From assembly GCF_000312665.1 (NCBI RefSeq), contig NZ_HF536778.1, positions 271,590-335,589 of the forward strand: 64,000 nt of DNA. The letters are read 5' to 3'. Under the pieces are notes generated by a model. That model was not told the origin of the DNA and made no database searches. It saw only the letters and a program-made list of their open reading frames with translations. A program made the position numbers and the translations under genes. This DNA is from Rhizobium mesoamericanum STM3625. Its GTDB lineage: Bacteria; Pseudomonadota; Alphaproteobacteria; Rhizobiales; Rhizobiaceae. Shown piece by piece: positions 2,794-59,297 of the stretch; the stretch's first letter is position 1, and each line of letters opens with the position of its first letter.

Positions 2794-2807
2794 ATACTAG
2801 CAAGTTT
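2794..2807. promoter_or_regulatory. Operator-like palindrome upstream of the ABC importer (2729-3036 gap)
   Basis: The sequence ATACT-agca-AGTTT differs by one base from the inverted repeat ATACT-N4-AGTAT that recurs before other genes of this window. It lies about 66 bp upstream of the binding-protein start, a suitable position for a repressor site. The rest of the 308 bp gap between the binding protein and the chemoreceptor shows no gene I can support. Confidence 0.45.
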
Positions 2808-3036: not shown

Positions 3037-5253
<2,217 letters not shown>

Positions 5254-5359
5254 CTCGCTCTCCCGTGAGCATCAGTTCGTGCGCCATCGGGATTGATGGC
5301 TGAGATGGACGTGAGTTTGCTTAGGCGCACTTAAATATTTACTAAACTTATTCGTACGC

Positions 5360-5640
5360 AGAAAATACTTATACGTACGCACTGCGACAGGCGCGCTGAT
5401 TTCGATACCGAGCAAAGAAGGCAGCGCGTAGTGGAACCAGATCAGACTTACCAACAACGGCGTGCAGCGGAACAGCTTCTGTTAATGCGACCAAAGACCA
5501 CGCGAGAAGCCGAATTTCGGACATCCTGACGAAGGCCCGCTTGCCCAAAGAAAAGCCACCGGCGATGGTAAGGAGGTAAAGACGACGGTGTAAAGGAGCC
5601 CGCTCAGCAAGAGACCGCGATACTCGAATATTACGTTCAG
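5360..5640 (-). pseudogene. Remnant of an amino-acid ABC transporter permease
   Basis: Three reading frames on the minus strand together give a permease of the HisM/GlnP type. FEYRGLLLSGLLYTVVFTSL is in one frame near 5640-5575. LLTIAGGFSLGKRAFVRMSE then EIRLLAWSLVALTEA is in a second. LLVSLIWFHYALPSLLGIEI is in a third near 5460-5400. At least two frameshifts separate them and the C-terminal half with the EAA loop is missing. It is therefore a dead fragment of another importer, unrelated to the complete one at 81-2728. The weak palindrome ATACT-tata-CGTAC at 5365-5378 falls inside it. Confidence 0.65.
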
Positions 5641-7508: not shown

Positions 7509-9026
7509 TCAAGCAGCTGCTAGCGCGTCTTCCGCACGGGCTTTGAGAGCCTTTTTGTCCACCTTTCCGGTCTTGCCCTGGGGCAGTTCGGACTCGAAGT
7601 AGATCGTGCGCGGGACTTTGAAATCGGAGAGCTTCTGGTCCAGGTACGCGATGAGCTCCTCAGGGCTGAGAACCGTGTTCGCGCGCAGTACGACGAAGGC
7701 GATCGGAACTTCCCCGAAAATGCGATCGAGGACACTGACGACCGCCGCGTCCTGCACGGATGGATGACTGATGATTGTCTGTTCTACTTCCGCGGGTGAG
7801 ATATTGTGGCCACCTCGGATAATAATGTCCTTGATCCGCCCGACTATGTAGTAGAACCCGTCCTTATCCTGCCTGACGAGATCTCCTGTTCTAAAGAGTC
7901 CGTCCTGCAACGCAGCGGCTGTCATCGCTTCGTCTTTAGCGTATCGCTTGACCGTAGACGGACCGCGCACATAAGCTTCGCCGGCCTCGCCCAGCTCGCA
8001 TTCGGTACCGTCTGGGTTCATGATCTTGACTGTGACGCCCGGACCGGCCCTTCCGATAGCTCCCGCCGGAAGAGGGGTTGGGTCATCGTAGTAGCGACCA
8101 AAGACAGGCGTGACCTCTGTAAGCGCGTAATAGTTCTGCAACGGTTTGCCGAATTTAGCCTCGAACCGGGCCGACACCGCCTCCGGGAGAGGCGCCCCCG
8201 AACAGATGAGCAGCCTGCTATTCGACAAGTCGAAAGATAGATCACGTTGTTCGCAATACTCCATCATCATGGAAAACATTGTTGGCACGCCGTGATAGAC
8301 GGTCACCGAATAGGTGTTGAAAGCCTCGAGCACGTCGCGAGGGTGGAAGCGGCGCAAGAGAACTACGGTTCCGCCGACAGATAAAGCGGTTGCAGCCGCG
8401 GTTGATAATCCGAAAATATAACCCAGCGGCAGAGCGACCAAGGTGACGTCATTATCCGAGACGCCCCACATCGTGGACAGCGACGCTGCCACGCCGATCT
8501 GGCACCGTTGGTCCAACACCACGGCCTTCTGATTGCCTGTCGTGCCGGACGAGTAGGTAATGATGAAGTCGTCCTCGACATCAATTCTGGCGTGAGGATG
8601 CTCAGCTATAGATGGCTCTGCGGTGAGTTCGGAAATGGGAAGCAGCTTGTCTTCCGGCACCGCCTGCCTCGCGATTTCCTTAACGTAGTCGTCAAAGAAG
8701 AGGACCTTTGCGCCACTGTGCTTGAAGTTGTAAGCGACCTCCGGAGCCGTCAGGTTTGGGTTTACGGGAACAAACACCGCGCCGATCTTTGCAGCGGCGT
8801 AATAGCAATAAATCTGCTCCGGATGGTTCTGTCCAAAAACGGCGAAAACGTCGCCTTTCCCAATACCAAGAGATGACAAACGCGCGATAACATCTTCAAT
8901 ACGGGACAAAAGCAACGCGTAGCCAATGGCTTCGCCTTCGTGGACGATCGCAATCTTCTCCATGCGCCCCCGAGCCGCCGCCAATAGTACGTTGTAAACC
9001 GACGAAAAGGGTGTTTGGTGTTCCAT
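7509..9026 (-). CDS. Acyl-CoA synthetase (AMP-forming, ANL superfamily)
   Basis: This 505 aa enzyme would convert a carboxylic acid, ATP and CoA to acyl-CoA, AMP and PPi. The A3 motif TYSSGTTGNQKAVV (residues about 165-178), A5 NYYALTEVTPVFG, A7 GLFRTGDLVRQD, A8 GRIKDIIIRGGHNISPAEVE and the catalytic Lys near the end (PQGKTGKVDKKALK) are all present. Its ATG overlaps the stop of the deacetylase gene (TAATG), so the two are coupled. It belongs to the broad fatty/aromatic acid ligase group and the acid is unknown. The AMP it makes may explain the adenylate kinase gene at 26811-27389. Confidence 0.92.
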   Translation of the reverse strand: MEHQTPFSSVYNVLLAAARGRMEKIAIVHEGEAIGYALLLSRIEDVIARLSSLGIGKGDVFAVFGQNHPEQIYCYYAAAKIGAVFVPVNPNLTAPEVAYNFKHSGAKVLFFDDYVKEIARQAVPEDKLLPISELTAEPSIAEHPHARIDVEDDFIITYSSGTTGNQKAVVLDQRCQIGVAASLSTMWGVSDNDVTLVALPLGYIFGLSTAAATALSVGGTVVLLRRFHPRDVLEAFNTYSVTVYHGVPTMFSMMMEYCEQRDLSFDLSNSRLLICSGAPLPEAVSARFEAKFGKPLQNYYALTEVTPVFGRYYDDPTPLPAGAIGRAGPGVTVKIMNPDGTECELGEAGEAYVRGPSTVKRYAKDEAMTAAALQDGLFRTGDLVRQDKDGFYYIVGRIKDIIIRGGHNISPAEVEQTIISHPSVQDAAVVSVLDRIFGEVPIAFVVLRANTVLSPEELIAYLDQKLSDFKVPRTIYFESELPQGKTGKVDKKALKARAEDALAAA

Positions 9027-9898: not shown

Positions 9899-10016
9899 AT
9901 TGCCTCCGGACCTAGACTCACCTTTTGTACTAAGGCGTATTATTTCCGTCCTATGAGTATCCCTACCCAGATTGGCTGCACATTGCAAGTCGAACATGCC
10001 GGCGCGCACAAAATAC

Positions 10017-10030
10017 ATTCTCCCTAGTAT
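10017..10030. promoter_or_regulatory. Operator-like palindrome between deacetylase and esterase genes (9899-10238 gap)
   Basis: ATTCT-ccct-AGTAT lies within a larger symmetrical AAATAC-N10-GTATTT. It differs from the shared ATACT-N4-AGTAT inverted repeat at one base. A second, weaker match, GTACT-aagg-CGTAT, is at 9927-9940, nearer the minus-strand operon. The 340 bp gap separates divergent operons, so each site could serve one promoter. Nothing else was found in the gap. Confidence 0.5.
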
Positions 10031-10238
10031 TTTTCAGTACGGTGGCGGGTGTGTAACTCAAGGCGCCCCCAGTCTCTTGCTATCTCGTTCCTTTGGGCTT
10101 TCTCTGGAAGGTGCGAAGAAATCCACGGCGGATTGTACGCAAAAGGCAGCTTCACATTCTTGACAGAATGTTTTTCGTATCCGAGGGTACGCGTGCGATA
10201 AAGGTCGCAATTAAGGACAATTGGGAGAGCTGCGCGCA

Positions 10239-12356: not shown

Positions 12357-12434
12357 TGGTGTCACATCCTTTACCTTAAGTTTGAAGCAAGCCGCGCTGT
12401 GGTGCACGCCAAGGAGACTGATAAAGATATTTTG

Positions 12435-12450
12435 CATACTTGTCAGTATG
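12435..12450. promoter_or_regulatory. Perfect operator-like palindrome CATACT-N4-AGTATG
   Basis: CATACT-tgtc-AGTATG is a perfect 6+6 inverted repeat, the best example in the window of the repeated ATACT-N4-AGTAT signal. It lies about 80 bp upstream of the RidA start in the RidA/lyase divergent region (12357-12657), which holds no gene. Confidence 0.65.
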
Positions 12451-12510
12451 TCATCGGCCGCTAATTTTGTCTGCGGACGTATGCACGATAAATTTTTTGG
12501 ATTTCTTTAT

Positions 12511-12524
12511 ATACTCTTGAGTAT
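12511..12524. promoter_or_regulatory. Second perfect operator-like palindrome ATACT-N4-AGTAT
   Basis: ATACT-cttg-AGTAT is a second perfect copy, centred 75 bp (about seven helical turns) from the first one at 12435-12450. A half-site AGTATG follows at 12541-12546. Two copies in one divergent region suggest separate control of each promoter or cooperative binding. Confidence 0.65.
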
Positions 12525-12657
12525 GTTTATCGCATCTTCTAGTATGTGGACGCTCGCCTTCGATGCCGAGATCGACGGAGTACTGGCCCGAAAGAGGTGC
12601 CGCAGAGACATCGGCAGGTTGCAGCGACTTCTTTGAACACTTTACGATGGGGATTGC

Positions 12658-13473
12658 ATGCCAAAAGGAACACCGTCCCACTGGGTAACCGGGGTCAGCG
12701 AAATTTCCGAGTCCGACATTTTCATTCGCGGGTATGCGATGAACGAGCTTGTCGGGACGGTTCCGTTCTCAGCCATCACCTACTTGCTGATCCGCGGCGA
12801 ATTACCCACACCCGGCCAAGCCCGTATGATGGACGTCATTCTCTCGTCCATTCTCGACTACGGTTTGCAGAAGTCTGGAACTGTCGCTGCTCGTGCGGTC
12901 GTCTCCGTAAACCCGGTGATGACCGCGGGGCTTGGCGCTGCCGTTCTAGCTGCCGGCGAGTACGCCTTGTCTCCGGAGGACACGGGTCGATTCATTGCTG
13001 AAACTTTCGCCAAATGGCAAGCGAGCGGGAAGTCTAAGGAAGAGGCCGCAACCGCGCTCGTGAGCGAACTCCGTGCGGCTAAGAAGAGGGTACCGGGGTT
13101 TGGTCACCAGGTATTTCGGTATGTCGATCCGCGTTCGCAGCGGCTGAAGGCTCTGGCAAAAGAGCAAGGCGTCTGGGGTGAGGCCATTGAGTGGTACGAG
13201 GCGGTCCATAAGGCGTTTCAAGATGCGACCAACAAGCCGGAACTTGTATTGAACGATGTCGGAATGCTCGCGGCGATCATGGTTCAGATGGGCTTTACGC
13301 CGCAGGAGATGTGCGGCCTCGCCCTGCTGTCGACGATGCCGGGATTGATCGCCCACGTGTCGGAAGAGCTTCAGTCAGGTGTCCGCAATCGACTCATCCC
13401 AGATTCTCACGTCGAATACGAAACCCCGAGGCGGGATCTTGCGGGTGAACTCACAAAGTTGGGATGGCGGTAA
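12658..13473 (+). CDS. Citrate-synthase-superfamily lyase (citryl-CoA-lyase-like)
   Basis: A 271 aa protein, much shorter than citrate synthase (about 430 aa) and matching citryl-CoA-lyase-type members. The conserved segment PGFGHQVFRYVDPRSQRLKA carries the family His and CoA-binding Arg. The other catalytic His motif (GPLHGG in citrate synthase) is not visible; the region reads AAGEYALSPEDTGRF. This suggests C-C bond cleavage of a CoA thioester or a changed reaction, not ordinary citrate synthesis. It starts an apparent plus-strand operon with MaoC, ETF and flavin dehydrogenase genes. Substrate unknown. Confidence 0.75.
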   Translation: MPKGTPSHWVTGVSEISESDIFIRGYAMNELVGTVPFSAITYLLIRGELPTPGQARMMDVILSSILDYGLQKSGTVAARAVVSVNPVMTAGLGAAVLAAGEYALSPEDTGRFIAETFAKWQASGKSKEEAATALVSELRAAKKRVPGFGHQVFRYVDPRSQRLKALAKEQGVWGEAIEWYEAVHKAFQDATNKPELVLNDVGMLAAIMVQMGFTPQEMCGLALLSTMPGLIAHVSEELQSGVRNRLIPDSHVEYETPRRDLAGELTKLGWR

Positions 13474-13518
13474 AGCAGCAAGCCGGCAATCGAATGTCAC
13501 CCGTGCCGTACTGCTCGC

Positions 13519-13565
13519 TTGACATAGCAAACCGGCTAGTAGAAAATACATTCTGCGCAGTATGT
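13519..13565 (+). promoter_or_regulatory. Promoter with overlapping operator before the MaoC gene
   Basis: TTGACA at 13519-13524 resembles a -35 box, with an AT-rich AAAATA about 18 bases later as a possible -10. The palindrome ACATTCT-gcgc-AGTATGT at 13548-13565 (one mismatch in seven per arm) starts at the end of the -10. A repressor there would block transcription of the MaoC/ETF/oxidase genes. Confidence 0.55.
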
Positions 13566-13635: not shown

Positions 13636-14124
13636 ATGGATACGACACTTGAACGCCCGACTTTGATTGTTGGACCGAACGCGATGTTCTTCGACGACTT
13701 TAAGGTGGGGCAGGAGTGGACGACGCCGCGCCGGACCATCACCGAGACCGACATCGTCATGTTCGCCGCTCTTACCGGTGATCATAATCCTGTCCATACC
13801 GACGAGATTTTCGCTCAGTCCACTCCGTTCGGTGCTCGTATTCTCCATGGGCCTGCGGTTTTCGCGATCGTTACAGGTCTTGAATTCCGTCTAGGCATTA
13901 AGGAAGGCACCGCGATTGCATTCTTGGGAATGACCTGGGATCTGAAAGCACCGGTAAAAATGGGCGACACGATCCATGTGTATCAGCGTGTAGAGGAGGT
14001 TCGGCGCACGTCCAATCCGGAGCGGGGGATCGTCAACTTCTGGCTCGAGGTCCGCAATCAAAAGGGCGACGTTTGTCAGCAAGGGATTTGGAAAGTCATG
14101 TTCCACTCCCGCAATGCTGGATGA
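13636..14124 (+). CDS. MaoC-family (R)-enoyl-CoA hydratase-like protein
   Basis: A 162 aa single hot-dog-fold protein. The hydratase-2 signature is present: FAALTGDHNPVHTDE with catalytic Asp and His, followed by ARILHGPAVFAIVTG. Members hydrate enoyl-CoA esters or dehydrate hydroxyacyl-CoAs. It has its own promoter/operator region and is followed by the ETF beta gene after 86 bp. With the CoA synthetase and the citrate-synthase-like lyase it implies a CoA-ester route, but no acyl-CoA dehydrogenase to make an enoyl-CoA is present in the window. Confidence 0.87.
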   Translation: MDTTLERPTLIVGPNAMFFDDFKVGQEWTTPRRTITETDIVMFAALTGDHNPVHTDEIFAQSTPFGARILHGPAVFAIVTGLEFRLGIKEGTAIAFLGMTWDLKAPVKMGDTIHVYQRVEEVRRTSNPERGIVNFWLEVRNQKGDVCQQGIWKVMFHSRNAG

Positions 14125-14210
14125 GGACAGGACCGCATTGTTGGAGCCTACGCAATATCACGCGGTCCAAAACATGGGAGCGGGCCAGCAGCAGGAGCGC
14201 AGTTTTAGAT

Positions 14211-14975
14211 ATGGACATCATCGTACTAATCAAGAAAGTTCCCGATCCGAATGTTCCGGAACACTTCGTGTCGATCTCGGATAACCACGAGAATATCATC
14301 CTCCACGCGTCGTCCCAGTATTCGATAAATCTTTATGACCTCAACGCGGTAGAAGCCGCGATCAGCCTCAAAGAAGCGCACGGGGGTACCATCACCGTCG
14401 TGACGGCGGACGACGCTTCGGCGGACCAATATCTGCGTCGAGTTCTGGCGATGGGTGCGGATAGCGCTGTCCGAGTGGAACTTGATCCAGCCGTTCGCAA
14501 CGACGCATTCCAGACTGCCGATGCTCTTGCATCTGCCATCAAAGCGATAGGTATTCCGTCGCTGATCATTGCCGGCCGACAGGCGTCTGACACCGACGCG
14601 GGTTATGTACCATTCCTGGTCGCTCACGGACTGGGAATTCCAGCGATTTCGCCGGTTGTTGCGTTCAAGTCCGCCACGGACAAGACCATCAACGTAGGCA
14701 AATTGTCGGAGGTAAGCATCGATGAGTATGAACTGGCTCTGCCGGCGATGGTCCTGGTCTCGAATGAGATCAATAAGCCGAGAACTCCTGGTCTTAAGGG
14801 TGTAATGGCAGCCAAGAAGGCAACGATCGATGTTGTTGAGCGAGCCTCGGGTCAAGTGGAGTCCAAGCCCACCTATGCGCCTAGGAAGGGACAGCGCACT
14901 GTCCAATCAACGCAGTTCATCGAGGGCAGCGACGACGACAAGGCGGCCGCCCTCGTCGCCGCTCTCCAAAACTGA
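14211..14975 (+). CDS. etfB: Electron transfer flavoprotein, beta subunit (cluster-specific copy)
   Basis: The beta subunit of an ETF, the soluble FAD/AMP carrier that takes electrons from flavin dehydrogenases. At 254 aa it shows IVLIKKVPDPNVPEHFVSIS, NLYDLNAVEAAISLKEAHGG and ADDASADQYLRRVLAMGADS. The later ADP-binding-type IAGRQASDTDAGYVP is also seen. The start at 14211 has GCAGGAG upstream. It differs clearly from the second, housekeeping-like ETF beta at 29088-29837. It is next to its alpha subunit (9 bp) and the two-subunit flavin dehydrogenase, its probable electron donor. Confidence 0.9.
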   Translation: MDIIVLIKKVPDPNVPEHFVSISDNHENIILHASSQYSINLYDLNAVEAAISLKEAHGGTITVVTADDASADQYLRRVLAMGADSAVRVELDPAVRNDAFQTADALASAIKAIGIPSLIIAGRQASDTDAGYVPFLVAHGLGIPAISPVVAFKSATDKTINVGKLSEVSIDEYELALPAMVLVSNEINKPRTPGLKGVMAAKKATIDVVERASGQVESKPTYAPRKGQRTVQSTQFIEGSDDDKAAALVAALQN

Positions 14976-14984
14976 GGCTCAGGA

Positions 14985-15929
14985 ATGACAAACGCTCTAT
15001 TCGTACTTCATCACTCTGCGGACACCCGGGCCACCGAATTCGGGACCCTCGCCTCGCTGGCCGCTTCGCTCAACAGTGCTGGATACACCAGCGGCTTGTT
15101 TATCCTTGACACGACTGCTGCCTCAACCGTTACGGTCAAGGCCGGCGGTGTATTTCGGAAAATTTCAGCGGTCTCGGCCGGGAAGCCCGTAGGCGATGGA
15201 GCGGACTACCTGGTGCAAGCAGTTCGTAAAGCATCGTCTGACTCATCGGTCATTGTTGCCTTGGGAACGGTTTCGAATAGGAACTGGGGGCCGCAAGTGG
15301 CAGCGGCGCAAGGCGCAGAATTCCTGACGGCTTGCGAGACGATTAATGCCGGTCGCGACGGTATAACCGCTACGGCTCCAGCATTGGGAGGGCTGGTGGT
15401 GAAGACCGTCGACCTCGGCAGCAAGCAAGCAGTCTTGCTTTATAGCGGAGAGGCACTTCCTGCGCCCGCTTTTGCCGACGTCGAGGCGGCCGTGTCGACA
15501 GATGAAGCTTCCGAAGGCCGGGTTCGGTTTGTTGCCTCGGAAGCATTGCCGGATACAGGAGGCATTCCGCTCCGTGGAGCGAGCAAGGTCGTGGCGGGCG
15601 GTCTTGGCGTAGGCTCGGGCGACAAGTGGCGGATTATCGAGGAGTTCGCCGGAAAGGTCGACGCTGCAGTCGGTGCAAGCCGTGCGGCAGTGGAAATGGG
15701 CTGGGTGCCGTCAAGCCGCCAGGTAGGCTTCTCCGGACAGAAGGTTAGTCCGGATGTCTACGTAGCGATTGGCATCTCCGGCGCCGTCCACCATCTAGCA
15801 GGGATCGGAGGCGCGAAGAAGATCGTGGCCATCAACAAGGACCCCGACGCCAGTATCTTCAAGGTGTCTGACGTCGCCATCGTTGGCGACTACGAGCATA
15901 TACTCGCTGCAGCGATGCGCAAGTTGTAG
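14985..15929 (+). CDS. etfA: Electron transfer flavoprotein, alpha subunit (cluster-specific copy)
   Basis: The alpha subunit of the ETF, 314 aa. The C-terminal FAD-binding domain is intact: [40 protein letters not shown] and [20 protein letters not shown], ending in [20 protein letters not shown]. It forms a heterodimer with the upstream beta subunit, starting 9 bp after it. Electrons would pass to the ETF-quinone oxidoreductase encoded at 21864-23513. Confidence 0.93.
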
Positions 15930-16030
15930 TAACAATCGGATCGCAATATCCGTCCGCTGGGAGGTACCACGGCGACGGCTTGATCAATACATGAGGCGGC
16001 CCAAGGCAGCCTGCACAAGGGAACACCGAA

Positions 16031-17485
16031 ATGAGCGGCAAACGTATCGTCGTTATTGGTGCGAGCCGATTGGGTTGTGACTTCGCTTTGGCGGCCGGTT
16101 CGGCGGGGCATGAAGTTACGCTGGTCGATGAGCATCCGCAGGAATTAAAGAGCATGTCGTTCGACGCTCCGTATTTTTACGGTTCGGGACTGCCCGCATC
16201 TCTTAGCGACGAGACAGCCGTTTTCGATAACGTCCTTAGCTCCAACGAAGCCCTTCTCGAATGCGTCGAGAACGACGTGGACGTCAAGATTGGCGTCGTT
16301 GCGTGGGGCGCATTTCACAATGCGCCGAATTCACAGCACATAGGTGTTCCCAAGGTCGGCATCGTTTCCCGCGAAGGCAACGAACTTCTAGAGTATGACC
16401 AGCTGGTTCTCGCGACAGGCTCCCGTGACTTTGTTCCATCCTTCAAAGGCTGGGAACTTCCCGGCGTTCTTGGTGCCAAGGCTGGATTGAAACTTCTTCA
16501 ATCCTATCAGTGTTTCAACGGCAGCCGCTGTCTCGTCCTCGGAACGACGGCGGTGGCGGTCGAATTTGCCAAGGCCGCGCGAGATTTCGGCATCGATGTC
16601 GCGGGCTTCGTCGAACCCACAGCATCGTTCCAGGCAGAAACCGAAATGCTTGAATGGGTCTCGTCGGAAGGAATTCCGATCTACTACGAGAGCGTGATCC
16701 TCGAGGCCAAGGGAACAGACAAGATTGGGTCAGCGGCCATCATCGCCGCAGATGGCTCGGGCAGTTTAGCGGAAATTGCCTGTGACTCGATCTGCGTCGC
16801 TATCGGTGTGTTGCCAAACGTCGAGCTTCCAGCCGCCATGGGCTGTGAAATGCGGTTCGACGACACGATCCCGGCCTGGGTACCTAAAGTCAAGGGGGAC
16901 CGCGAAACGTCGATATCTCAGGTCTTTTGGCTTTCTTCTTTCGATCCGACCGACGAACAACCGGCGAAAGCATTGGCGGCGATAGAAAATGGACCAACTG
17001 GAACGAACGCAGCACTGGCTGAATCGGATGGCAGACAAGCAGACTACATCAATCTTTGGGTCGCCAAGCTGCATGAAATGGGCGGCGCTGACGTCGTGCT
17101 TTGCCAGTGTGAAACCGTTACGCGCGGCGAGTTTCTAAATCTACAGCCCCCGCGCTATCTCAAGGCCGGCCTCAAGGTGATCCATGATCCTGTGACAGGT
17201 GGTGAAGGCGGACCGAAAATCAGCCAGGACCTTGCCAAGCGCATGACGCGCGTTGGCATGGGCCATTGCCAGGGCAAGCGTTGCCGCGACGAAGCGGCTT
17301 TCTTGCTCTCGCAACGATTCGGCGTGCCATTGCGAGATATCAGGCCAGGCAGTTATCGGTTCCCGATCCGCCCTATCGACATGTCCCTGATAGCAGCAGA
17401 AGATGACGATTATCACACTCGCGAAAAGTGGCCTCACTGGATGCATGAGGAAGTCGTTCCGGTCGATGTGGCAGGCACCGAGTAA
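16031..17485 (+). CDS. Flavin dehydrogenase subunit A (HcnB/OoxA/sarcosine-oxidase-alpha-like)
   Basis: The larger subunit (484 aa) of a heteromeric amino-acid/opine-type dehydrogenase. An N-terminal Rossmann FAD site (VVIGASRLGCDFALAAGSAG), a second nucleotide site (CLVLGTTAVAVEFAKAARD) and CVAIGVLPNVELPAAMG fit the pyridine-nucleotide-disulfide-reductase-like fold of OoxA and HcnB. The C-terminus has a BFD-like 2Fe-2S site: CQCETVTRGE and GHCQGKRC supply four Cys. The partner FAD subunit follows after 11 bp. The pair probably oxidises a C-N bond in a secondary or N-alkyl amino acid. No separate small ferredoxin subunit (HcnA/OoxC type) is visible. Confidence 0.82.
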   Translation: MSGKRIVVIGASRLGCDFALAAGSAGHEVTLVDEHPQELKSMSFDAPYFYGSGLPASLSDETAVFDNVLSSNEALLECVENDVDVKIGVVAWGAFHNAPNSQHIGVPKVGIVSREGNELLEYDQLVLATGSRDFVPSFKGWELPGVLGAKAGLKLLQSYQCFNGSRCLVLGTTAVAVEFAKAARDFGIDVAGFVEPTASFQAETEMLEWVSSEGIPIYYESVILEAKGTDKIGSAAIIAADGSGSLAEIACDSICVAIGVLPNVELPAAMGCEMRFDDTIPAWVPKVKGDRETSISQVFWLSSFDPTDEQPAKALAAIENGPTGTNAALAESDGRQADYINLWVAKLHEMGGADVVLCQCETVTRGEFLNLQPPRYLKAGLKVIHDPVTGGEGGPKISQDLAKRMTRVGMGHCQGKRCRDEAAFLLSQRFGVPLRDIRPGSYRFPIRPIDMSLIAAEDDDYHTREKWPHWMHEEVVPVDVAGTE

Positions 17486-17496
17486 GGAGGATTGAG

Positions 17497-18660
17497 ATGA
17501 ATCACTACGACATTATTGTCGTCGGTTCCGGCCTTCTCGGATTGTCGACTGCTTACAATGCTCAAAAAGCTGGCGCGGGGGTGTTGGTTGTCGACCGAGG
17601 CCCCGTCGCATACGAAGCCTCGTCTCGCGCGACAGGCTACCTGAGCGTCAGAGCTGACGACCCCGATGAAGCTCCTCTAGCGAAAATGGCCGAGGACCTA
17701 TGGGGAACACTTGATGAAGAACTTGGATATCCTACCGAATGGACGCCCAAGGGCCGTCTCTGGGTTGCGTTCTCCGATAAGCAGGTTGACGAACTGCATG
17801 AGACGTACAAGGCATTCCAACGGGCCGACGATAGCTTCGAAATCATCGACGCGGATGCATGTCGAAAATTGATCCCAATACTGTCTCCTGAAACGCGCGC
17901 TGGTCTTTATACACCACGCTCGGGCCACGCTAATCCTCAACGCGTTTCACAGGCGTACGCATGGGCGTTCCAGGACCGCGGCGGAACGATTGTCGAAAAC
18001 AACCCTGTCTATTCTGTTATTGCAGAGGGCGGAAAGGTGAAGGGGGTCAGGACGGCGCGCGATAAAGTGTACGCCGATCGCGTCGTGCTCTGCGCTGGCG
18101 GCTACAACGCCACTTTGCTTCAGCCTTTTGGCGTGGCTTTTCCAGTTGCGACCGTGCGACTTGAAGCGTTGGTGACAACGCCCCTGCCCCATATGTATGA
18201 CGTCGGCTTCATCGGCCTCAATGGTCTTTCTATCCGCCAGACAAAGCGCGGGAACCTTCATGCTAACGGCGGCCCGCACGAATGGGTGGATGTCAACGCC
18301 GACGAGGAGCCTGCTAAGCCAAACACCCCTATCGTCCGCAACCTCGTCCGTCGGATGATCGAGGCCTTTCCAGTCGCCGCGGGTGCGCAACTGCTCCGAA
18401 CCTGGGCTGGCGTTCTCGACATCACGAAAGACCAGAAGACGATCGTTCACAGGTTCGACGAACCGGAAGGGCTCTTGGTCGCGGCCGGTGCCGGTCACGG
18501 CTTCGGTATGGCTCCTTCCGTGGGGATTGCCATGTCGGAGCTTGCTCTCGAAGGAAAAACGCGGGCACCGATTGAGAAGCTTACCCTGGACAGGTTCGCG
18601 AACCTAAACCCGAACTGGAAGGCCGATAAACGGTGGACGCCGGGGTCTTATAACACTTAA
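17497..18660 (+). CDS. Flavin dehydrogenase subunit B (DAO family; HcnC/OoxB/SoxB-like)
   Basis: The substrate-oxidising FAD subunit (D-amino-acid-oxidase fold), 387 aa. It has the dinucleotide site IVVGSGLLGLSTAYNAQKAG, the conserved YTPRSGHANPQRVSQAYAWA, VVLCAGGYNATLLQPFGVAF and a C-terminal VAAGAGHGFGMAPSVGIAMS. It is coupled to the A subunit. An AAGGAGG ribosome site precedes the ATG. With the ETF genes immediately upstream, ETF rather than oxygen is the likely electron acceptor (inference). A rho-independent terminator follows at once. Confidence 0.87.
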   Translation: MNHYDIIVVGSGLLGLSTAYNAQKAGAGVLVVDRGPVAYEASSRATGYLSVRADDPDEAPLAKMAEDLWGTLDEELGYPTEWTPKGRLWVAFSDKQVDELHETYKAFQRADDSFEIIDADACRKLIPILSPETRAGLYTPRSGHANPQRVSQAYAWAFQDRGGTIVENNPVYSVIAEGGKVKGVRTARDKVYADRVVLCAGGYNATLLQPFGVAFPVATVRLEALVTTPLPHMYDVGFIGLNGLSIRQTKRGNLHANGGPHEWVDVNADEEPAKPNTPIVRNLVRRMIEAFPVAAGAQLLRTWAGVLDITKDQKTIVHRFDEPEGLLVAAGAGHGFGMAPSVGIAMSELALEGKTRAPIEKLTLDRFANLNPNWKADKRWTPGSYNT

Positions 18661-18700: not shown

Positions 18701-18774
18701 CTGCGTGCCGCTCTTGGCTTGTCATTTCAGCTCTTATACCGTAGAGAACGAAAAAATACTTCAGAAGGTGGCCG

Positions 18775-19413
18775 ATGGATATGGAATCGCAGAAAATCAG
18801 CGCGAAACCGAGCATTCGGGATAAAATCAAGCAGCAAAAAACCGAACTTATCCAGGAAGAGATTCTGGAAGCGGCATCGCGCTTGATCGCAGCTCGCGGG
18901 TTCCGCGCGGTAACGGTCGACGACATTAGCGCCGAGATGGGTTTTACCAAATCCATTATCTACTATTACATGAAGAGCAAAAACGAGATTCTGTGGCGGA
19001 TTTTCGAGAAGATTGATGTCACTTATGCAGAGGGCCTTGAGGAGGCATTGCAGTCGGGCGGCAGCACGACCGACGTTCTTGCGAGCATCGTAAAGATGCA
19101 CTCTCTAAACGTAATGCAGCATCAATCCTGGGCTACCATTTACAATCGTGATGAGAACGAGTTGATCGATGATCAGCACGCGATCGTCACGGCCAACCGC
19201 CGCAAGTACAACAAGCAGATCCAGGGTTTGTATTCTAGGGGCGTAACCGAGGGCGTTTTTAGGGACACTCCTCCGTTCATCGCGGTAAGCTGCCTAATCG
19301 GCGCGTGCAATTGGGCCTACACCTGGTTCAAGCCAGGCCTGAAACATACGGCCGAGGAAGTTGCGTCTGCGTTCGCTGACCAGCTCATTCTAGGCGTTTT
19401 AATCAAGAATTGA
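18775..19413 (+). CDS. TetR-family transcriptional regulator
   Basis: A 212 aa DNA-binding repressor-type protein. The N-terminal helix-turn-helix is typical: FRAVTVDDISAEMGFTKSII followed by YYYMKSKNEILWRIFEKI (residues about 43-80). The C-terminal ligand domain contains QHQSWATIYNRDENELI and CLIGACNWAYTWFKPG, like regulators of acyl-CoA and aromatic catabolism. It sits alone between two terminators in the middle of the catabolic genes. It is the only one-component regulator of this block, so it is the first candidate for the ATACT-N4-AGTAT sites. Upstream of itself only a weak match (ATACC-gtag-AGAAC) is visible near 18737. Confidence 0.9.
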   Translation: MDMESQKISAKPSIRDKIKQQKTELIQEEILEAASRLIAARGFRAVTVDDISAEMGFTKSIIYYYMKSKNEILWRIFEKIDVTYAEGLEEALQSGGSTTDVLASIVKMHSLNVMQHQSWATIYNRDENELIDDQHAIVTANRRKYNKQIQGLYSRGVTEGVFRDTPPFIAVSCLIGACNWAYTWFKPGLKHTAEEVASAFADQLILGVLIKN

Positions 19414-20454: not shown

Positions 20455-20468
20455 ATACCGACAAGTAC
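20455..20468. promoter_or_regulatory. Operator-like palindrome in the SDR/NMO divergent gap (20338-20666)
   Basis: ATACC-gaca-AGTAC matches ATACT-N4-AGTAT with one mismatch in each arm. It lies about 118 bp upstream of the SDR start in the 329 bp divergent region. Apart from this site I see nothing in the gap. Confidence 0.4.
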
Positions 20469-20666
20469 AATACAATACCAGAGAGATTGCGCAACCCTTA
20501 GCCGGGGCACGGAATGGGAAAAGTCGCACATCAATAATACGGCTCTTTACAAACGTACCGATCATAATGTTTATTATACCCATTGGTCGACAAACAAGCG
20601 CGATCGGTGGAAGGCTCAACACCTGGAGCGCGATACCGATTTGTTACTGGCTCGGAGGACGGACAC

Positions 20667-24826: not shown

Positions 24827-26142
24827 ATGACGGTTCGGCAAAACCTCTCCTCGAAACTCAAAGACCCGACGCTCGCGGTCGATAAGGCGCTGATCGCCGG
24901 CGAGTGGGTTCCAGTAAGCGATAGTGGGGGGACGTTCGACGTGAGCAATCCGTCGACGGGTGAAATTCTCGCGACACTTCCTGATATGAACCGCACTGAG
25001 ACAAAGCGTGCGATCGCCGCTGCTCACAAGGCTCAAAAGGTCTGGGCGAAGAAGACGGGAAAGGAGCGCGCGGGGGTTCTTCGGAAGCTTTTCGATCTAA
25101 TGATTGACAACGTTGATGACCTTGCGACCATCTTGACCCTCGAAATGGGAAAGCCCTTCGCGGAAGCAAAGGGGGAAATCCTCTACGGTGCATCGTATGT
25201 GGAATGGTTCGGCGAGGAGGCTAAGCGTCTCTACGGTGACGTAATCCCTGGGCATCTCTCGGATAAGCGGATCATGGTCATTAAACAGCCAGTTGGGGTC
25301 GTCGCCGCCATCACGCCGTGGAATTTTCCGAACGCGATGCTTGCGCGGAAGATGGCTCCTGCGATCGCCGCCGGGTGTGCGATGATTTCCAAACCGGCCG
25401 CTCAAACTCCGCTCTCTGCACTCGCGCTAGCGCTTCTGGCGGAACGGGCGGGAGTCCCAGCGGGTATTTTCAACGTAATCCTGTCGAAGGACTCACCCTC
25501 GGTAGGACGAGAGTTCACCGATAATGACAAGGTTCGAAAACTTACGTTTACCGGGTCGACTGAAGTAGGCCGCATTCTTATGCGCCAAGGCGCTGATCAG
25601 ATCATGAAGCTCGGACTTGAGCTGGGTGGGAACGCTCCGTTCATTGTGTTCGACGACGCCGATCTAGATGCTGCCGTTGAAGGCGCGATGGTCTCGAAGT
25701 ACCGCAACAACGGCCAGACCTGCGTATGTGCGAACCGGCTTTACGTGCAATCCGGTATCTATGACGCCTTCGCGAGGAAACTGGCTGATCGGGTCTCGTC
25801 AATCAAAGTCGGTGACGGTTTCGAAGCCGGTGTCGCAGCCGGACCGCTCATCGACAGCAAGGCCTTGGCTAAGGTTGAAGAACATATCCAGGACGCTGTT
25901 TCCAAGGGTGCGCAAATCGCCGTGGGTGGAAAGCGGCACGAGAAAGGTGCTCTCTTTTTCCAACCTACCGTGCTGACGGGTGTAACCACGGAGATGAAGG
26001 TCGCCCGTGAAGAAACATTTGGCCCCGTCGCCCCGCTGTTCAGGTTCGAAACGGCGTCAAGCAGTCTGGCCAAGGCCGGGAGGGATCGAAATACGGCTTA
26101 GAAGATTACACCGAGATCAAATATCTCTGCCTAAGTGTATGA
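24827..26142 (-). other. Placeholder strand note for gabD (see plus-strand entry)
   Basis: No minus-strand gene is supported in this interval; the coding content is the plus-strand gabD remnant listed separately. Confidence 0.05.
24827..26142 (+). pseudogene. gabD: Succinate-semialdehyde dehydrogenase, C-terminal internal deletion
   Basis: The NAD(P)-dependent enzyme that should follow GabT in GABA breakdown. The first about 405 residues are normal: ITPWNFPNAMLARK, catalytic Glu in [16 protein letters not shown] and catalytic Cys in [14 protein letters not shown]. After [20 protein letters not shown] the frame jumps directly to what should be the last 20 residues. In another frame the DNA reads [20 protein letters not shown], ending with TGA at 26140-26142. 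About 50 codons including the APFGGVKESG region are gone and the frame is shifted, so the ORF stops early at 26101. The product lacks part of the catalytic and oligomerisation region and is probably dead. Confidence 0.9.
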
Positions 26143-27412: not shown

Positions 27413-28117
27413 TTAGGGTGTGTGCCGCTGGCCTTCGAGATGGCACCAGAGCACCAGTAGTGACTTTTGTGTGCACCGCATGGCGCATGTGCTGCTCGCG
27501 GGGTTGAACAAAACGTCCCCAACTCCAGCGCTCTTCCATTCCTCTTCGCCGAAACGAAATTCTCCAATCGACAGCGGCAAGAATACACGCGCCTGTTTTT
27601 GCATATGATCAGGAAAACGGGTGTATGGACCGAGAAAAGTCAGACCGAGAACGACATCAAGCCGGTGCTCCAGTGCACCCGGGCCGAGCAATATTCCTTG
27701 GGAATGGCTCTGCTCGAAGTTGACGCTTGCAAAGGCACCGGCTCTTCTTTTGAACCAATCCACCCGGTCGACCACCGCCAGAAGACCGTCTGTCAAACTC
27801 TTGTAAGACGGTGAGGTCGCGCTGGCTTCTGCTAGCAGGGCCTTGATCTGTTGGAGACACGAGAGTTCATCAGAAGTGCAAGACTCAACCGTTGCTGCTC
27901 CCCGTGCTCCGAGCAGGTTGATGATCTTGCCGGCAGTGAACTTTGCCATTAGCGGCACCGGCTCAGCCAATAAGATGTCACCGAGGGCCAGAATGATTGC
28001 TTGAAGTTCGGCTGGCCGCGCGGAATCCCATTTTCTGCGCGGTGTTCCGTCGAGCAAGTGACGGTCTTCGATCAGCAGATCGTCGCCAAGCTTCCCTGAG
28101 GCGCTGATACCGGCCAA
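27413..28117 (-). CDS. DMSP-lyase-like cupin with altered metal ligands
   Basis: A 234 aa protein whose C-terminal cupin resembles the dimethylsulfoniopropionate lyase family (DddL/DddQ type): LGPYTRFPDHMQKQARVFL then LPLSIGEFRFGEEEW, GDVLFNPASSTCAMRC and LLVLWCHLEG. Active members bind metal through an HxHxxxE/Y set and a late His in PHAMRT. By my hand alignment only the first His remains; the second His, the Glu and the last His (now Cys) are changed. It is therefore unlikely to be a DMSP lyase and may bind another ligand. It probably starts at TTG 28117 with GGGAGA upstream, 13 bp after the ETF alpha gene. Confidence 0.6.
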   Translation of the reverse strand: MAGISASGKLGDDLLIEDRHLLDGTPRRKWDSARPAELQAIILALGDILLAEPVPLMAKFTAGKIINLLGARGAATVESCTSDELSCLQQIKALLAEASATSPSYKSLTDGLLAVVDRVDWFKRRAGAFASVNFEQSHSQGILLGPGALEHRLDVVLGLTFLGPYTRFPDHMQKQARVFLPLSIGEFRFGEEEWKSAGVGDVLFNPASSTCAMRCTQKSLLVLWCHLEGQRHTP

Positions 28118-29888: not shown

Positions 29889-29902
29889 ATACTCTCTAGT
29901 AC
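29889..29902. promoter_or_regulatory. Operator-like palindrome upstream of the second ETF operon
   Basis: ATACT-ctct-AGTAC differs by one base from the shared ATACT-N4-AGTAT repeat. It lies about 52 bp upstream of the ETF beta start, a usual operator position. Confidence 0.5.
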
Positions 29903-29963
29903 AAAGACATTCGCATAAGTACAAGAACTTTTTGTGGAAGATTACGCATCCCGCCGTCTATCT

Positions 29964-31865: not shown

Positions 31866-33251
31866 TTGACGCTACGACACCAGATCATCGCATTGGCGAT
31901 CGTTCCGCTTGTCATCTCGATCCTCGCGATCACCACCTTCATTACCTGGCAATCGGCAAACCTTGCCAAGAACAGCATCGACATGTTCGAGCAGAACATG
32001 CTGAAGGCCAAGGAAGCCGAGATCCTCAACCTGACCAATCTTGCCCTATCCGCCATCCAGACGATCTATGACGAGGCCGGGGCCGACGACGAAGCCGCCA
32101 AGCAGCAGGTGGCGGCGATCCTGACCTCGCTCGACTACGGCAAGGACGGGTATTTCTTCGTCTATGATTACGACGGCAACAATATCGTCCATCCGCGCCA
32201 GAGTTTCCGGCATGGGCACAATTGGCTCGATCTCACCGATCCGGATGGCGATAAGGTCATTGCAGAACTGATCGTCACGGCCAAGGCCGGCGGCGGCCTG
32301 CACCAGTACAAATGGCAGAAACCATCGACCGGACAGATCGCCGACAAGCTCTCCTTCGTCGTCAGCCTCGACAAATGGCACTGGGTCGTCGGCACCGGCG
32401 TCTATCTGGATGACGTCTTTGCCCAGAGCGCTGCCGCCAATGCGGTGACGCGCGCCAACATCAGACGGACCTTCGTCATCGTCGCGCTGATCGCCGTGCC
32501 TTCGGTGCTGGTCGTGTTCACGACCTGCATGCTGCTGACCTTCCATGAGCGCCGCATGGCCGACAGCCGGCTGAAGGAGTTGACGCAGCGGGTGATCGAC
32601 ACCCAGGAGGAAGAGCGCACGCGGCTGGCGCGCGAGCTGCATGACGGCATCTCCCAGACCCTTCTGGGCGTGCGTTATGCGATGGATCTCGCCGGCCGCA
32701 AGGTCAGGACCAATGTCGACGAGGCGGCGCTGACCATCGAGCGCGGCGTCGAGGCGCTGAATGGCGCGATCAAGGAAATCCGGCTGCTCTCGCATGATCT
32801 GCGCCCCCGCGTGCTCGATGACCTCGGCCTGACGGCTGCGCTGGAGGCACTGTGTCATCACTTTGCCGAGCGCACGGGGATCGAGACGGAGATCGATGCC
32901 TCGGCCTTCGCCGGCACGCTGAAGGCGGAAGCCAGTACCGCCCTTTATCGCGTCGCCCAGGAGGCCTTCAATAATGTCGAGCGGCATTCGGGAGCCTCGA
33001 AGCTCTCGGTCAAGCTCTGGAGCGACGGCGGCCGCGCCCGCATGACCATCTCCGACAACGGCACCGGCTTCGATGGCGCCGGGGATGGCGCGTCCGGCGG
33101 CTCGGGCCTCGGCCTGCGCAACATGCAGGAACGGATGGCGCACTTCCGGGGCCTGCTCCTCATCAACAGCAGCGAGGCCGGCACGACGCTGACGGCAATG
33201 ATGCCGAGATCGGCAAATATTGCCGCCGGCAAGCAGGCGGAAGCCGCATGA
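31866..33251 (+). CDS. mctS: Cache-domain sensor histidine kinase of the MctP locus
   Basis: A membrane sensor kinase of 461 aa. Two membrane segments (residues about 8-28 and 202-222) enclose a single-Cache domain with YGKDGYFFVYDYDGNNIVHP and DKWHWVVGTGVYLDDVF. The cytoplasmic part is NarX/DesK-like: H-box RLARELHDGISQTLLG, N-box YRVAQEAFNNVERHSGA and G-box GSGLGLRNMQERM. It starts at TTG 31866 with GGGAGG upstream and overlaps the regulator by 4 bp. Position before an MctP-type permease matches the known Rhizobium mct locus, where the kinase activates monocarboxylate uptake (recalled). Confidence 0.85.
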   Translation: MTLRHQIIALAIVPLVISILAITTFITWQSANLAKNSIDMFEQNMLKAKEAEILNLTNLALSAIQTIYDEAGADDEAAKQQVAAILTSLDYGKDGYFFVYDYDGNNIVHPRQSFRHGHNWLDLTDPDGDKVIAELIVTAKAGGGLHQYKWQKPSTGQIADKLSFVVSLDKWHWVVGTGVYLDDVFAQSAAANAVTRANIRRTFVIVALIAVPSVLVVFTTCMLLTFHERRMADSRLKELTQRVIDTQEEERTRLARELHDGISQTLLGVRYAMDLAGRKVRTNVDEAALTIERGVEALNGAIKEIRLLSHDLRPRVLDDLGLTAALEALCHHFAERTGIETEIDASAFAGTLKAEASTALYRVAQEAFNNVERHSGASKLSVKLWSDGGRARMTISDNGTGFDGAGDGASGGSGLGLRNMQERMAHFRGLLLINSSEAGTTLTAMMPRSANIAAGKQAEAA

Positions 33252-33919: not shown

Positions 33920-34166
33920 GCCCCGGTATTTCGCCGCCGCGCCCATCTTGTGAGTGCAAAACCAACGTCCTAGGACTCCATTCGCGGCTTGCCAAGTGCC
34001 AAGCCGTTGGGAGGAATTCACATGTGTTACATCAGCTTCCGATCCGCCGGAAAAGCTCGAGCGACCCGAACCGGGCCTGCTGCCGCCGCCGGCTGACAGA
34101 CCTGCCTTCCACGCCGACAACTGGAACATGGCGACCGCAACTGCGGCGCCTGAAAGGTACTCCGAC

Positions 34167-49739: not shown

Positions 49740-50469
49740 TTTTCTCCCGTGTTTTGTCGAACAAGCGGGTCAGAACCGCCGATCGAACTAGTCAATGTCC
49801 CCTGCGTACGCTATCCGACCATTTACATACTAATCAGAAGCTTTTTTGAACGCGCTAGTCAGCTTAGCGCTGATTACCTGAATGTCAACTATCTTAAAGG
49901 AGGATTACTGCGCTTCGGGAAACATGGTTTAGCCTCCAAGTCGGTTATGAAAACCGTCCCGGCAGCATGTCTCCACACAACGATCATCAATCATCGATGC
50001 AGGCGTAAGCACGCAGATGGCGGGGCTTGCGGCCGCAATCCACTGATAGGAGTTTGCTATCCACGAGCAAGCGTATGCCGGCTCCTTTGTCAGCTACGCC
50101 TAGTTGACATCATGCTTCATTTTGGTCTCGATGGGGATAAGCTGGCGATAGATGCCATCTCAACCTTGACGACCTCCATGGCAAACGGAGACGGCGATAT
50201 TTTCGAGATGACCTAGTTGATGCATCATTGCCGTTCGAGACGGGACAGAGGAAGCGAGCCCGATACTCCGAAGGTCTGGTTTCCCGAAATTAGCTCGAAC
50301 GATCAAGAGGCAACACCAAGTTCTTTTGGACGAGAGCGGCCAAAGCCTCCAACCTCCGAGAGACGGTATGAATCCGGGAATGGCTGGGCTTCCTACTATA
50401 ACTGTGTACTGACGAAGCATAATACGTCAGGGGCCCGCCACGCTTCATCAACCCGCTTGGCTCGTCTGC
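49740..50469. other. Intergenic region between ABC importer and aldehyde dehydrogenase
   Basis: This 730 bp stretch holds the importer promoter and a weak operator-like repeat, ATACT-aatc-AGAAG at 49827-49840 (two mismatches). I find no gene. Short frames such as the plus-strand one ending ISTLTTSMANGDGDIFEMT at 50214 have no recognisable family or ribosome site. Confidence 0.45.
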
Positions 50470-51956: not shown

Positions 51957-51970
51957 ATACTCATGGGTAT
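51957..51970. promoter_or_regulatory. Operator-like palindrome upstream of the aldehyde dehydrogenase
   Basis: ATACT-catg-GGTAT differs by one base from ATACT-N4-AGTAT and lies 62 bp upstream of the aldehyde dehydrogenase start. It suggests that the right-hand catabolic block shares the regulator of the left-hand block. The remaining gap (51895-52177) has no gene. Confidence 0.5.
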
Positions 51971-52177
51971 CTTTACATGCCAATCAGTTGAATGTCTATA
52001 TTGCGGGGGAGGCCTGTACTCAGTATCCAATAGACGGCCATCTTCTAGTGATGCCCCCTCGAAGACATTTGCCGCGGTAGCGACGGATGCTATCAAACGG
52101 AACCTGCCCTCAAAGCCTCTATGCAACCAAGAGCCATTTCACAGAAGCCGCCTTGACCAGCCGCGAGCGATTTCTGA

Positions 52178-58979: not shown

Positions 58980-59297
58980 AGGTTTTCGCTCCAGATACCC
59001 CGGCCGAATCACGATTACAAGCCGCGCAAACTAAACGGTATGTAATTAGACCAAGTAGTATATCGAGCATCGGCGAGCGTCAAGATAGTCTGGTGTGGTT
59101 GGCAAGCTTTTGCCAAGACGGGCAAAGATGACCGAGCAGACTGTCCTGCCCTGCTCGGTCTCTGGGGGAACCCTTCAGTCCGGATCCTAAACAGCGGTGA
59201 TCTGATAATCCGTGTTCTTAGGGTCCTTGGAGTGGAAGTGGGCCTGGACCACGTCCAGACGATCAAGGCCGCTCAGCGATGACCGTTTAACAGCTCT
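58980..59297. other. Gap with a possible gene tail
   Basis: On the minus strand, in frame after the aminotransferase stop, 59297-59187 reads RAVKRSSLSGLDRLDVVQAH then FHSKDPKNTDYQITAV and a stop. It could be the end of a degraded gene, but no start or family is visible. The rest is AT-rich near 59035-59065 and may be the promoter of the GMC gene; a half-site AGTAT is at 59057-59061. Confidence 0.3.

Follow-up and report, generated by a model that had tools for sequence, protein, structure and literature searches.

A tandem palindromic operator and its probable TetR-family regulator in a catabolic gene cluster of Rhizobium mesoamericanum STM3625

Introduction

MbdR of Azoarcus sp. CIB is the closest characterised regulator that we found for the system considered here: a palindrome, ATACT-N4-AGTAT, and a TetR-family protein, both from a 64,000-nucleotide stretch of Rhizobium mesoamericanum STM3625 (contig NZ_HF536778.1, positions 271,590 to 335,589; hereafter the window). 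As far as the account in PMC4424350 goes, MbdR is a TetR-family repressor of an anaerobic aromatic pathway, its operator is ATAC-N10-GTAT, and its inducer is 3-methylbenzoyl-CoA. In the parts of that account used here, the likenesses to our system as we predict it are several: a TetR regulator of a catabolic cluster, multiple operators with ATAC/GTAT half-sites, a CoA ligase gene among those controlled, and operators also before the regulator's own gene. The two differ in operator spacing, which is ATAC-N6-GTAT here as opposed to ATAC-N10-GTAT. The same parts of PMC4424350 mention no tandem arrangement for MbdR, whereas operators here are mostly paired at 20–21 bp, and MbdR serves an aromatic pathway, whereas the cluster here looks nitrogen-related. 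Because the operator spacing differs, the TetR protein of the window is, by that test, not an MbdR orthologue.

Other TetR-family proteins offer partial parallels. KstR2 of mycobacteria governs steroid ring degradation, binds a short palindrome of the CAAG..CTTG type and has a CoA-thioester inducer. It thus shares with our system a short palindrome and, putatively, the kind of inducer, but the operators differ (CAAG..CTTG versus ATAC..GTAT); its structures (4w1u, 4w97) match the TetR protein of the window at E 1e-11. QacR places two dimers, overlapping, on one 28-bp element; here, two dimers on one DNA stretch would occupy separate 14-bp palindromes 20–21 bp apart. Structure 3vpr, which we take to be PaaR of Thermus thermophilus (its entry states only TetR family), concerns another pathway and another operator than ours. 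PMC4424350 counts PaaR among the catabolic TetR regulators that sense CoA thioesters. In one open-access literature library, we found no paper on the ATACT palindrome or on the general and TGACT-type motifs described below and, by titles and the starts of abstracts, none on this gene cluster. New here are the tandem operator, a weak conserved copy at the tetR promoter, and the mixing of half-sites in distant loci.

Results

A palindrome concentrated in the noncoding DNA of the window

A first-pass annotation of the window had listed copies of ATACT-N4-AGTAT and proposed that they mark a shared catabolic regulon. Every site that it listed is present. Two copies are perfect, one at 12436-12449 (extended to 12435-12450 by one additional complementary pair) and one at 12511-12524; both are located between the RidA gene and the citryl-CoA-lyase-like gene, 75 bp from each other. 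Five copies carry one mismatch (2794, 10017, 13550, 29889 and 51957) and three carry two (9927, 20455 and 49827). Seven two-mismatch places were absent from the list (5365, 10156, 20564, 46524, 48993, 59028 and 59048). The window thus holds 17 places with at most two mismatches, compared with a mean of 7.8 after shuffling (standard deviation 2.8, maximum 14), and none of 100 shuffles reaches 17.

Noncoding DNA was defined by a simple gene caller. By these calls, all seven places with at most one mismatch are intergenic, as claimed; two of the unlisted two-mismatch places, 46524 and 48993, lie within called genes. With at most one mismatch, the motif is therefore far from equally frequent in coding DNA of the window (7 noncoding, 0 coding). 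Distances from site to gene start are mostly 30–150 bp. The 12436 site reaches two bases into the start of the longest open reading frame (ORF) for RidA; the annotated RidA homologue of R. etli Mim1 begins about 80 bp further in. Among 11,264 combinations of arm and spacer, ATACT-N4 ranks first in the noncoding DNA of the window, with 7 occurrences observed and 0.23 expected. This ranking replaced one of whole sequences against single-base frequencies, which we dropped as misleading because CG-rich coding patterns dominate it; there, ATACT-N4 ranks only 51st in the window (coding DNA included), 316th in pooled independent loci, and 7th in the three loci L054, L062 and L082 introduced below.

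Sites recur at orthologous promoters and are confined to the window within its replicon

Comparison loci were fetched by TetR homology, without reference to the motif. Plasmid loci came from R. etli Mim1 (pRetMIM1e, TetR 98.6% identical; L053), R. leguminosarum WSM2304 (pRLG203, 76%), Rhizobium NZLR1 (p5, 37.5%) and Paraburkholderia sprentiae (L056, 32.7%), and 30 loci came from genomes, 22 of them (L061–L082) with a full-length TetR of the clade. Several cluster genes are common to most loci; the P. sprentiae locus shares the TetR gene alone. A TetR of the clade (E up to 1e-20) is found in 5 of 148 Rhizobium genomes, the window's own counted, and relatives occur in Ensifer, Mesorhizobium, Ancylobacter, Paraburkholderia, Ralstonia and Pseudomonas.

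When homologous intergenic regions are compared, as the first-pass annotation had suggested, sites are found conserved at orthologous promoters of other loci, which argues for the shared regulon that it had postulated. For example, TACTCTTGAGTATGT of the 12511 operator is identical in all four aligned loci, and the 12436 site is retained with changes in L053, L054 and L062. L053 has a perfect copy (4031) at the position matching the chemoreceptor operator, L054 has a two-mismatch site (12609) at the place corresponding to 10017, and the SDR operator pair is retained in L054 and L062. An exact site stands ahead of NMO in a Rubellimicrobium metagenome-assembled genome (MAG) and two more genomes, and the Ensifer aldehyde dehydrogenase homologue is also preceded by one.

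In the noncoding DNA of L054, L062 and L082 (TetR 68–78% identical), ATACT-N4 again ranks first of 11,264 (9 observed, 0.18 expected). It ranks second in 14 mostly alphaproteobacterial loci (TetR 35–43%; 13 observed, 0.54 expected), where the related TTGAC-N6-GTCAA ranks first (16 observed, 0.81 expected); TGACT-N4 is enriched in six beta- and gammaproteobacterial loci (6 observed, 0.77 expected). ATACT is also the first of 30 permuted arms in the window, the pooled loci, and L054, L062 and L082 together (7, 22 and 10 sites, respectively); TTCAA reaches 14 and ATCAT 19 in the pooled loci. N4 is the commonest spacer for ATACT, with N8 second in the pooled loci (15).

A position weight matrix (PWM) was trained on 16 sites from L054, L062 and L082 only, none of them from the window, and scanned over the complete replicon (C7, 551,965 bp). 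All 14 sites of at least 12 bits fall in the window and none in the remaining 488 kb, compared with a mean of 3.5 such sites in shuffled replicons; at 9 bits, 21 sites lie inside the window and 14 outside. By this measure, the motif is not as frequent in unrelated DNA of the replicon as it is here. Support varies among the proposed member sites: the importer site at 2794 scores no better than background, and site 49827 is without a tandem partner.

In 14 related genomes, ATACY-N4-RGTAT occurs at 49 places compared with 30 for the reversed control (sums that leave out two plasmid records). Fifteen of the 49 are on the tetR contig, though tetR contigs make up only about 2% of the DNA, and the five of these whose surroundings beyond the tetR locus were inspected precede genes for NMO (3), aldehyde dehydrogenase (1) and an ABC transporter ATPase homologue (1). 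Four places on pRLG203 precede two ABC transporter gene sets, a molybdopterin oxidoreductase gene and an aldehyde dehydrogenase gene. ATACT-N4-AGTATG, both strands summed, is present in 33 of 148 Rhizobium genomes, with at most two counts each save in two genomes with an identical or near-identical TetR, each of which has three.

Palindromes are paired at 20–21 bp

The functional unit is mostly a tandem: ATACY-N4-RGTAT with a second, usually weaker copy 20–21 bp off. In alignments of orthologous gaps, a second conserved block is seen at this distance from the listed palindrome at several promoters. We scored 15 window sites, one member per pair, several of the pairs having first been noticed in these alignments. 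The best PWM score at ±20/21 averages 4.0 bits, compared with −10.7 to −14.4 bits at five control spacings, and a positive partner, usually the weaker of the two, is found at 11 of the 15 sites, versus 0–1 of 15 at control spacings. Random sets were taken from the window in full, coding DNA included, and not one of 5000 reaches this mean. The sites that lack a positive partner are 10017 (−1.0 bits, at −21), 18736 (−2.9), and 49827 and 2794 (both about −7.5). The set omitted 48993, 30481 and 9020 (10.2–10.8 bits) and kept 20576 (9.8) and 2794 (9.1); 48993 and 30481 lie inside called genes and 9020 just between two genes.

Profiles of core matches over 64 offsets point to the same spacing. For near-clade sites, the window's included, −21, +20, +21 and −20 are the top four; for ATACT-type sites of the distant alphaproteobacterial set, −21 and +20 are the two best; and across 20 distant loci (47 exact sites), −21 is first and +21 second. 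It is only by these profiles and by the best score within the spacing set that 20/21 stands out. As 20–21 bp corresponds to two helical turns, both palindromes would lie on one face of the DNA.

At 5 of 16 ATACT-type seeds in the 14 mostly alphaproteobacterial loci, the core also has at least five matches at +41, and triple operators are possible there.

The MaoC operon bears out the statement that one palindrome overlaps a TTGACA promoter. The match TTGACA-17-GAAAAT lies at 13519-13547, with one palindrome within its spacer and the other immediately past the −10 element, and its TTGACA is conserved. The promoter and terminator scan was overall no richer than shuffles (promoters, 6 versus 5.1), and only this conserved TTGACA was used.

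Two half-sites mix in distant relatives

In distant loci, the palindrome is built from two half-sites, ATACY (A) and TGACY (B). Pairs of the types AA, BB and hybrid AB number 7, 7 and 18 in mostly alphaproteobacterial loci and 2, 4 and 9 in beta- and gammaproteobacterial ones. Pooled over 20 distant loci, the AA:AB:BB ratio is 9:27:11, close to the binomial expectation of 10.8:23.5:12.8 (chi-square P=0.30, a rough value because the sites are not all independent). In these loci, noncoding DNA (58 kb) has 47 exact sites and coding DNA (343 kb) has 4, or 51 in 401 kb altogether; shuffled-arm and other-spacer controls have none. Control loci outside the clade have 6 in 231 kb (2 AA, 0 AB, 4 BB), and C7 outside the window has 2 (both AB) in 488 kb.

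Hybrids would not be expected as the most frequent class if two proteins each had sites of their own; the mixture thus suggests that, in these relatives, one homodimer reads both kinds of half. TGACT-type sites had first been ascribed to a different regulator, and a second TetR was sought, an explanation dropped in light of the hybrids. Of the 20 genomes or records searched, each has one clade member, save one Paraburkholderia with two, and two of the searched genomes carry additional TetR hits at 24–29% identity. In L065 (Paraburkholderia podalyriae), two clade TetR genes, their products 39% and 43% identical to the window protein, share one locus.

The TetR protein and its own promoter

The first-pass annotation named the TetR protein at 18775-19413 as the best candidate to bind these sites. 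Both domains of its family score above the Pfam cut-offs: TetR_N with 48.4 bits (cut-off 24) and the ligand and dimerisation domain TetR_C_24 with 81.2 bits (cut-off 26.4). The protein falls below the NCBIfam equivalog cut-offs for FadR of Bacillus (50.7 of 200 bits), MftR (45.2 of 224.9) and SACE_7040 (57.1 of 250). Among solved structures, its sequence matches 3dcf best (E 1e-24), with 3vpr at E 8e-19 and MbdR (4uds) at E 7e-15. The recognition-helix region is near-identical in two clades (GFTKSI(I/V)YYY versus mostly GYTKSVVYYY), and the helix-turn-helix region varies little across the clade.

A pair of palindromes at the tetR promoter is conserved in all four aligned loci (the window, L053, L054 and L062), one of which is nearly identical to the window. 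The first reads ATACC..AGAAC (GGAAC in L062) and the other, 20 bp on and near the start codon, ATACT....AAGGT, such that the left half-sites are good and the right halves weak; the 18736 site scores 13.1 bits with the matrix from other loci. In L082 (the Rubellimicrobium MAG, TetR 68% identical), a perfect ATACTTTTGAGTAT lies between tetR and a divergent SDR gene. Additionally, 12 of 20 distant loci have a TGACT-type site with at most one mismatch in the 250 bp ahead of tetR (shuffled mean 0.5, maximum 2), and 3 of 20 have an ATACT-type site there (shuffled mean 0.4).

No other DNA-binding regulator was recognised by Pfam among the unlabelled genes of L062 and L082, nor among the listed genes in the 40 kb of L053, for which the gene table is incomplete. 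Together with the copy at the tetR promoter and the motif variants expected of one homodimer, this lends support to the TetR protein as the regulator.

Operators and genes of the cluster

The proposed operators and the main genes are collected in Table 1.

Table 1. Proposed operators and associated genes in the window (PWM scores in bits)
Feature	Coordinates	Strand	Details
Family-3 importer, doubtful site	2794..2807		PWM 9.1; 14 outside-window sites reach 9; without partner
Chemotaxis receptor gene operator	5344..5378		AAACTTATTCGTAC + ATACTTATACGTAC, 21 bp apart; PWM 16.2, partner 7.3
AMP-forming acid-CoA ligase, behind operators 9927 and 10017	7509..9026	-	Pfam AMP-binding
Polysaccharide-deacetylase-like/CoA ligase/amidase operator, proximal pair	9927..9960		PWM 11.7, partner 6.6
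Polysaccharide-deacetylase-like/CoA ligase/amidase operator, second, distal	10017..10030		PWM 13.7
Carboxylesterase gene operator	10156..10190		ATTCTTGACAGAAT + GTATCCGAGGGTAC, 21 bp apart; PWM 14.0, partner 6.0
RidA gene operator	12415..12449		Perfect ATACTTGTCAGTAT at 12436 (PWM 20.9) + weak partner 21 bp upstream (12415; 2.7)
Citryl-CoA-lyase-like gene operator	12511..12545		Perfect ATACTCTTGAGTAT at 12511 + half-site partner at +21
Citryl-CoA-lyase-like gene	12658..13473	+	NCBIfam NF004869, 347 bits (cut-off 212)
MaoC-ETF-FAD oxidoreductase operator	13529..13563		AAACCGGCTAGTAG (13529) + ATTCTGCGCAGTAT (13550)
MaoC, ETF beta, ETF alpha, two FAD oxidoreductases (probably one operon)	13636..18660	+	Pfam
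Proposed tetR autoregulatory operator	18736..18769		ATACCGTAGAGAAC + ATACTTCAGAAGGT, 20 bp apart
TetR-family regulator, proposed binder of all listed operators	18775..19413	+	TetR_N + TetR_C_24; homologues in comparison loci
SDR gene operator	20455..20488		ATACCGACAAGTAC + ATACCAGAGAGATT, 20 bp apart; PWM 17.7 + 3.9
NMO-ETFQO-aminotransferase-SSADH operator	20555..20589		GTACCGATCATAAT + ATACCCATTGGTCG, 21 bp apart; PWM 12.1 + 9.8; conserved
Second ETF operon operator	29889..29922		ATACTCTCTAGTAC + ATTCGCATAAGTAC, 20 bp apart; PWM 14.1 + 15.2; conserved in L054
SBP8-type ABC importer, probable site	49827..49840		PWM 14.8; without tandem partner (-7.5)
Aldehyde dehydrogenase operator	51957..51990		ATACTCATGGGTAT + ATGCCAATCAGTTG, 20 bp apart; PWM 21.5 + 6.0; conserved in L054
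GMC oxidoreductase operator	59028..59061		AAACTAAACGGTAT + AGACCAAGTAGTAT, 20 bp apart; PWM 13.1 + 10.8

The genes for aminotransferase, SSADH, ETF and ETF-QO, and FAD amine-oxidase-like proteins suggest a nitrogen-containing carbon source. A link to mimosine, suggested by the location of L053 on the symbiotic plasmid of R. etli Mim1, was rejected; in the part of their paper used here, the authors of the R. etli Mim1 work report that mid- or pyd-like genes are lacking (PMC4125696).

Some of the genes themselves seem damaged. The chemoreceptor gene (3037-5253, minus strand) can be aligned in a single frame, 5253 to 3040, with an R. etli Mim1 protein of 738 residues; its ORF begins only at 4887 in the ORF list, and an in-frame stop seems to interrupt the gene. 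Relative to the Mim1 copy, the SSADH gene (24827-26139) lacks about 54 residues internally and shifts frame near 26053, so that it looks broken. A cupin gene (27413-28117) that falls in the DMSP-lyase Pfam family sits in the second ETF operon beside adenylate-kinase-like and thioesterase genes, a grouping that largely recurs in L054 and L055. An IS110-type transposase gene (44279-45451) separates the two blocks of the regulon. The stretch 31866-35829 encodes a Cache-domain histidine kinase and a LuxR-type response regulator, followed by a sodium:solute symporter, and none of the 40 top operator scores of the replicon falls there. A terpene synthase family 2 gene near an undecaprenyl-diphosphate-synthase-like gene (37568-39809) is apparently unrelated to the regulon.

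Discussion

The motif and the regulon that it marks are near certain to be real, and we are confident that the TetR protein is what binds the operators, a conclusion drawn from sequence comparison. That it both binds and represses at the listed operators is a slightly weaker claim, though still one that we consider probable. In the mechanism that we propose, each tandem operator would accommodate two neighbouring TetR dimers on the same face of the DNA, presumably bound cooperatively. The protein would repress about a dozen operons belonging to a single catabolic system and, to a weaker extent, the tetR gene itself. The repressed set would include the operons for the esterase, RidA, CoA ligase and amidase, citryl-CoA-lyase-like protein, MaoC with ETF and FAD oxidoreductases, and SDR; the rest would be those for NMO with ETF-QO, aminotransferase and SSADH, the second ETF operon, aldehyde dehydrogenase, GMC oxidoreductase, the chemoreceptor, and probably one importer. 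A pathway intermediate, most likely a CoA thioester made by the AMP-forming ligase of Table 1, would bind the C-terminal domain of TetR and lift repression. We favour a CoA thioester as inducer, with some reserve, because MbdR, KstR2 and the 3vpr protein are relatives and because the gene for the ligase lies behind a predicted operator.

The sites might instead belong to another regulator, such as an FNR/FixK-like protein, a LuxR-type response regulator or a plasmid LysR, with TetR merely a neighbour. The 5-N4-5 layout is indeed common outside the TetR family, FNR/FixK-like sites being an example, and the window encodes LysR, RpiR and LuxR-type regulators, the last with its histidine kinase. 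We nevertheless regard this explanation as improbable. The motif is present in loci that were fetched by TetR and not by motif, three of which show no second DNA-binding regulator within the scope given above, and among 40 unlabelled proteins of seven loci, the families matched by at least two proteins include no DNA-binding one. TGACT-type variants stand directly upstream of tetR in most distant loci, the two half-site forms mix as they would for a single dimer, and the highest counts of ATACT-N4-AGTATG go with the near-identical TetR. It is also conceivable that TetR binds the sites as an activator or dual regulator rather than as a plain repressor, as some sites (12511, 10017) are at least 100 bp upstream of gene starts and one operon has two operators. 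This, too, is unlikely, to a similar degree: the MaoC tandem extends over both the spacer and the start-site side of TTGACA-17-GAAAAT, a repressor position, and the characterised relative MbdR represses, according to the account in PMC4424350.

That the motif is simply a side effect of AT-rich promoters in a genome richer in GC, with no regulon behind it, we consider negligible in probability. Such a reading could appeal to the low rank of ATACT-N4 when coding DNA and single-base expectations are used, and to the closeness of ATCAT to ATACT in the pooled loci; with base composition accounted for, ATACT-N4 nonetheless ranks first in noncoding DNA, and ATACT leads the permuted arms in three sets. 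It could also appeal to the genome (6.46 Mb, 7 contigs), which has 25 places with at most one mismatch, not above the 32 of the reversed pattern; it follows that any regulon is local. The 18 places outside the window (coding and noncoding pooled) are no more than background, but the 64-kb window contains the genome's only two perfect copies as well as 7 of the 25 places, where about 0.25 would be expected by length. The empty shuffled-arm and other-spacer controls, the selectivity of the PWM across loci and the fixed 20–21 bp tandem likewise argue against a by-product.

Several observations besides the genome-wide count and the other regulators of the window weigh against a TetR regulon built on tandem operators. 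At the tetR promoter of the window, the sites are weak (two mismatches; partner −2.9 bits), and 8 of the 20 distant loci have no close TGACT-type site ahead of tetR. ATACT-N4 is not enriched in the six beta- and gammaproteobacterial loci (1 observed, 0.71 expected). L056 (TetR 33%), the most distant locus examined, has no place with at most one mismatch and three with at most two, compared with 2.9 after shuffling. The tandem spacing is not uniformly prominent: among TGACT-type seeds of the 14 mostly alphaproteobacterial loci alone, +16 is top and −21 second, and a mean-percentile ranking in the window placed +14 and −42 above −21 and +20. Orthologous promoters share ancestry, hence site counts are not independent. 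L054 also carries a LysR gene and L055 a GntR-type (FCD) gene within 40 kb, and, the loci having been chosen by TetR homology, a second regulator that always travels with TetR, or that lies beyond the fetched stretch, may exist. Finally, the near clade has an AA:AB:BB ratio of 8:0:0, having lost TGACY half-sites without an obvious recognition-helix substitution to explain it.

This last ratio implies that the branch of the window has narrowed to ATACY alone. On balance, we lean towards a TetR lineage of alpha-, beta- and gammaproteobacteria that uses modular operators, 14-bp palindromes every 20–21 bp with ATACY or TGACY halves, from which the Rhizobium-plasmid branch would have narrowed to ATACY with its helix almost unchanged. 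For a catabolic gene set that few Rhizobium genomes carry, the present analysis gives a concrete operator and a regulator that can be put to the test. Searches with the operator can pick out the genes of the pathway, those for chemoreceptor and importers among them, and so offer a route to its substrate. The mixing of half-sites and the loss of one of them in a single branch make a compact case of regulator-operator co-evolution; if the modular reading is true, it would be a natural experiment in which the half-site specificity of a repressor shifted across a whole regulon simultaneously.

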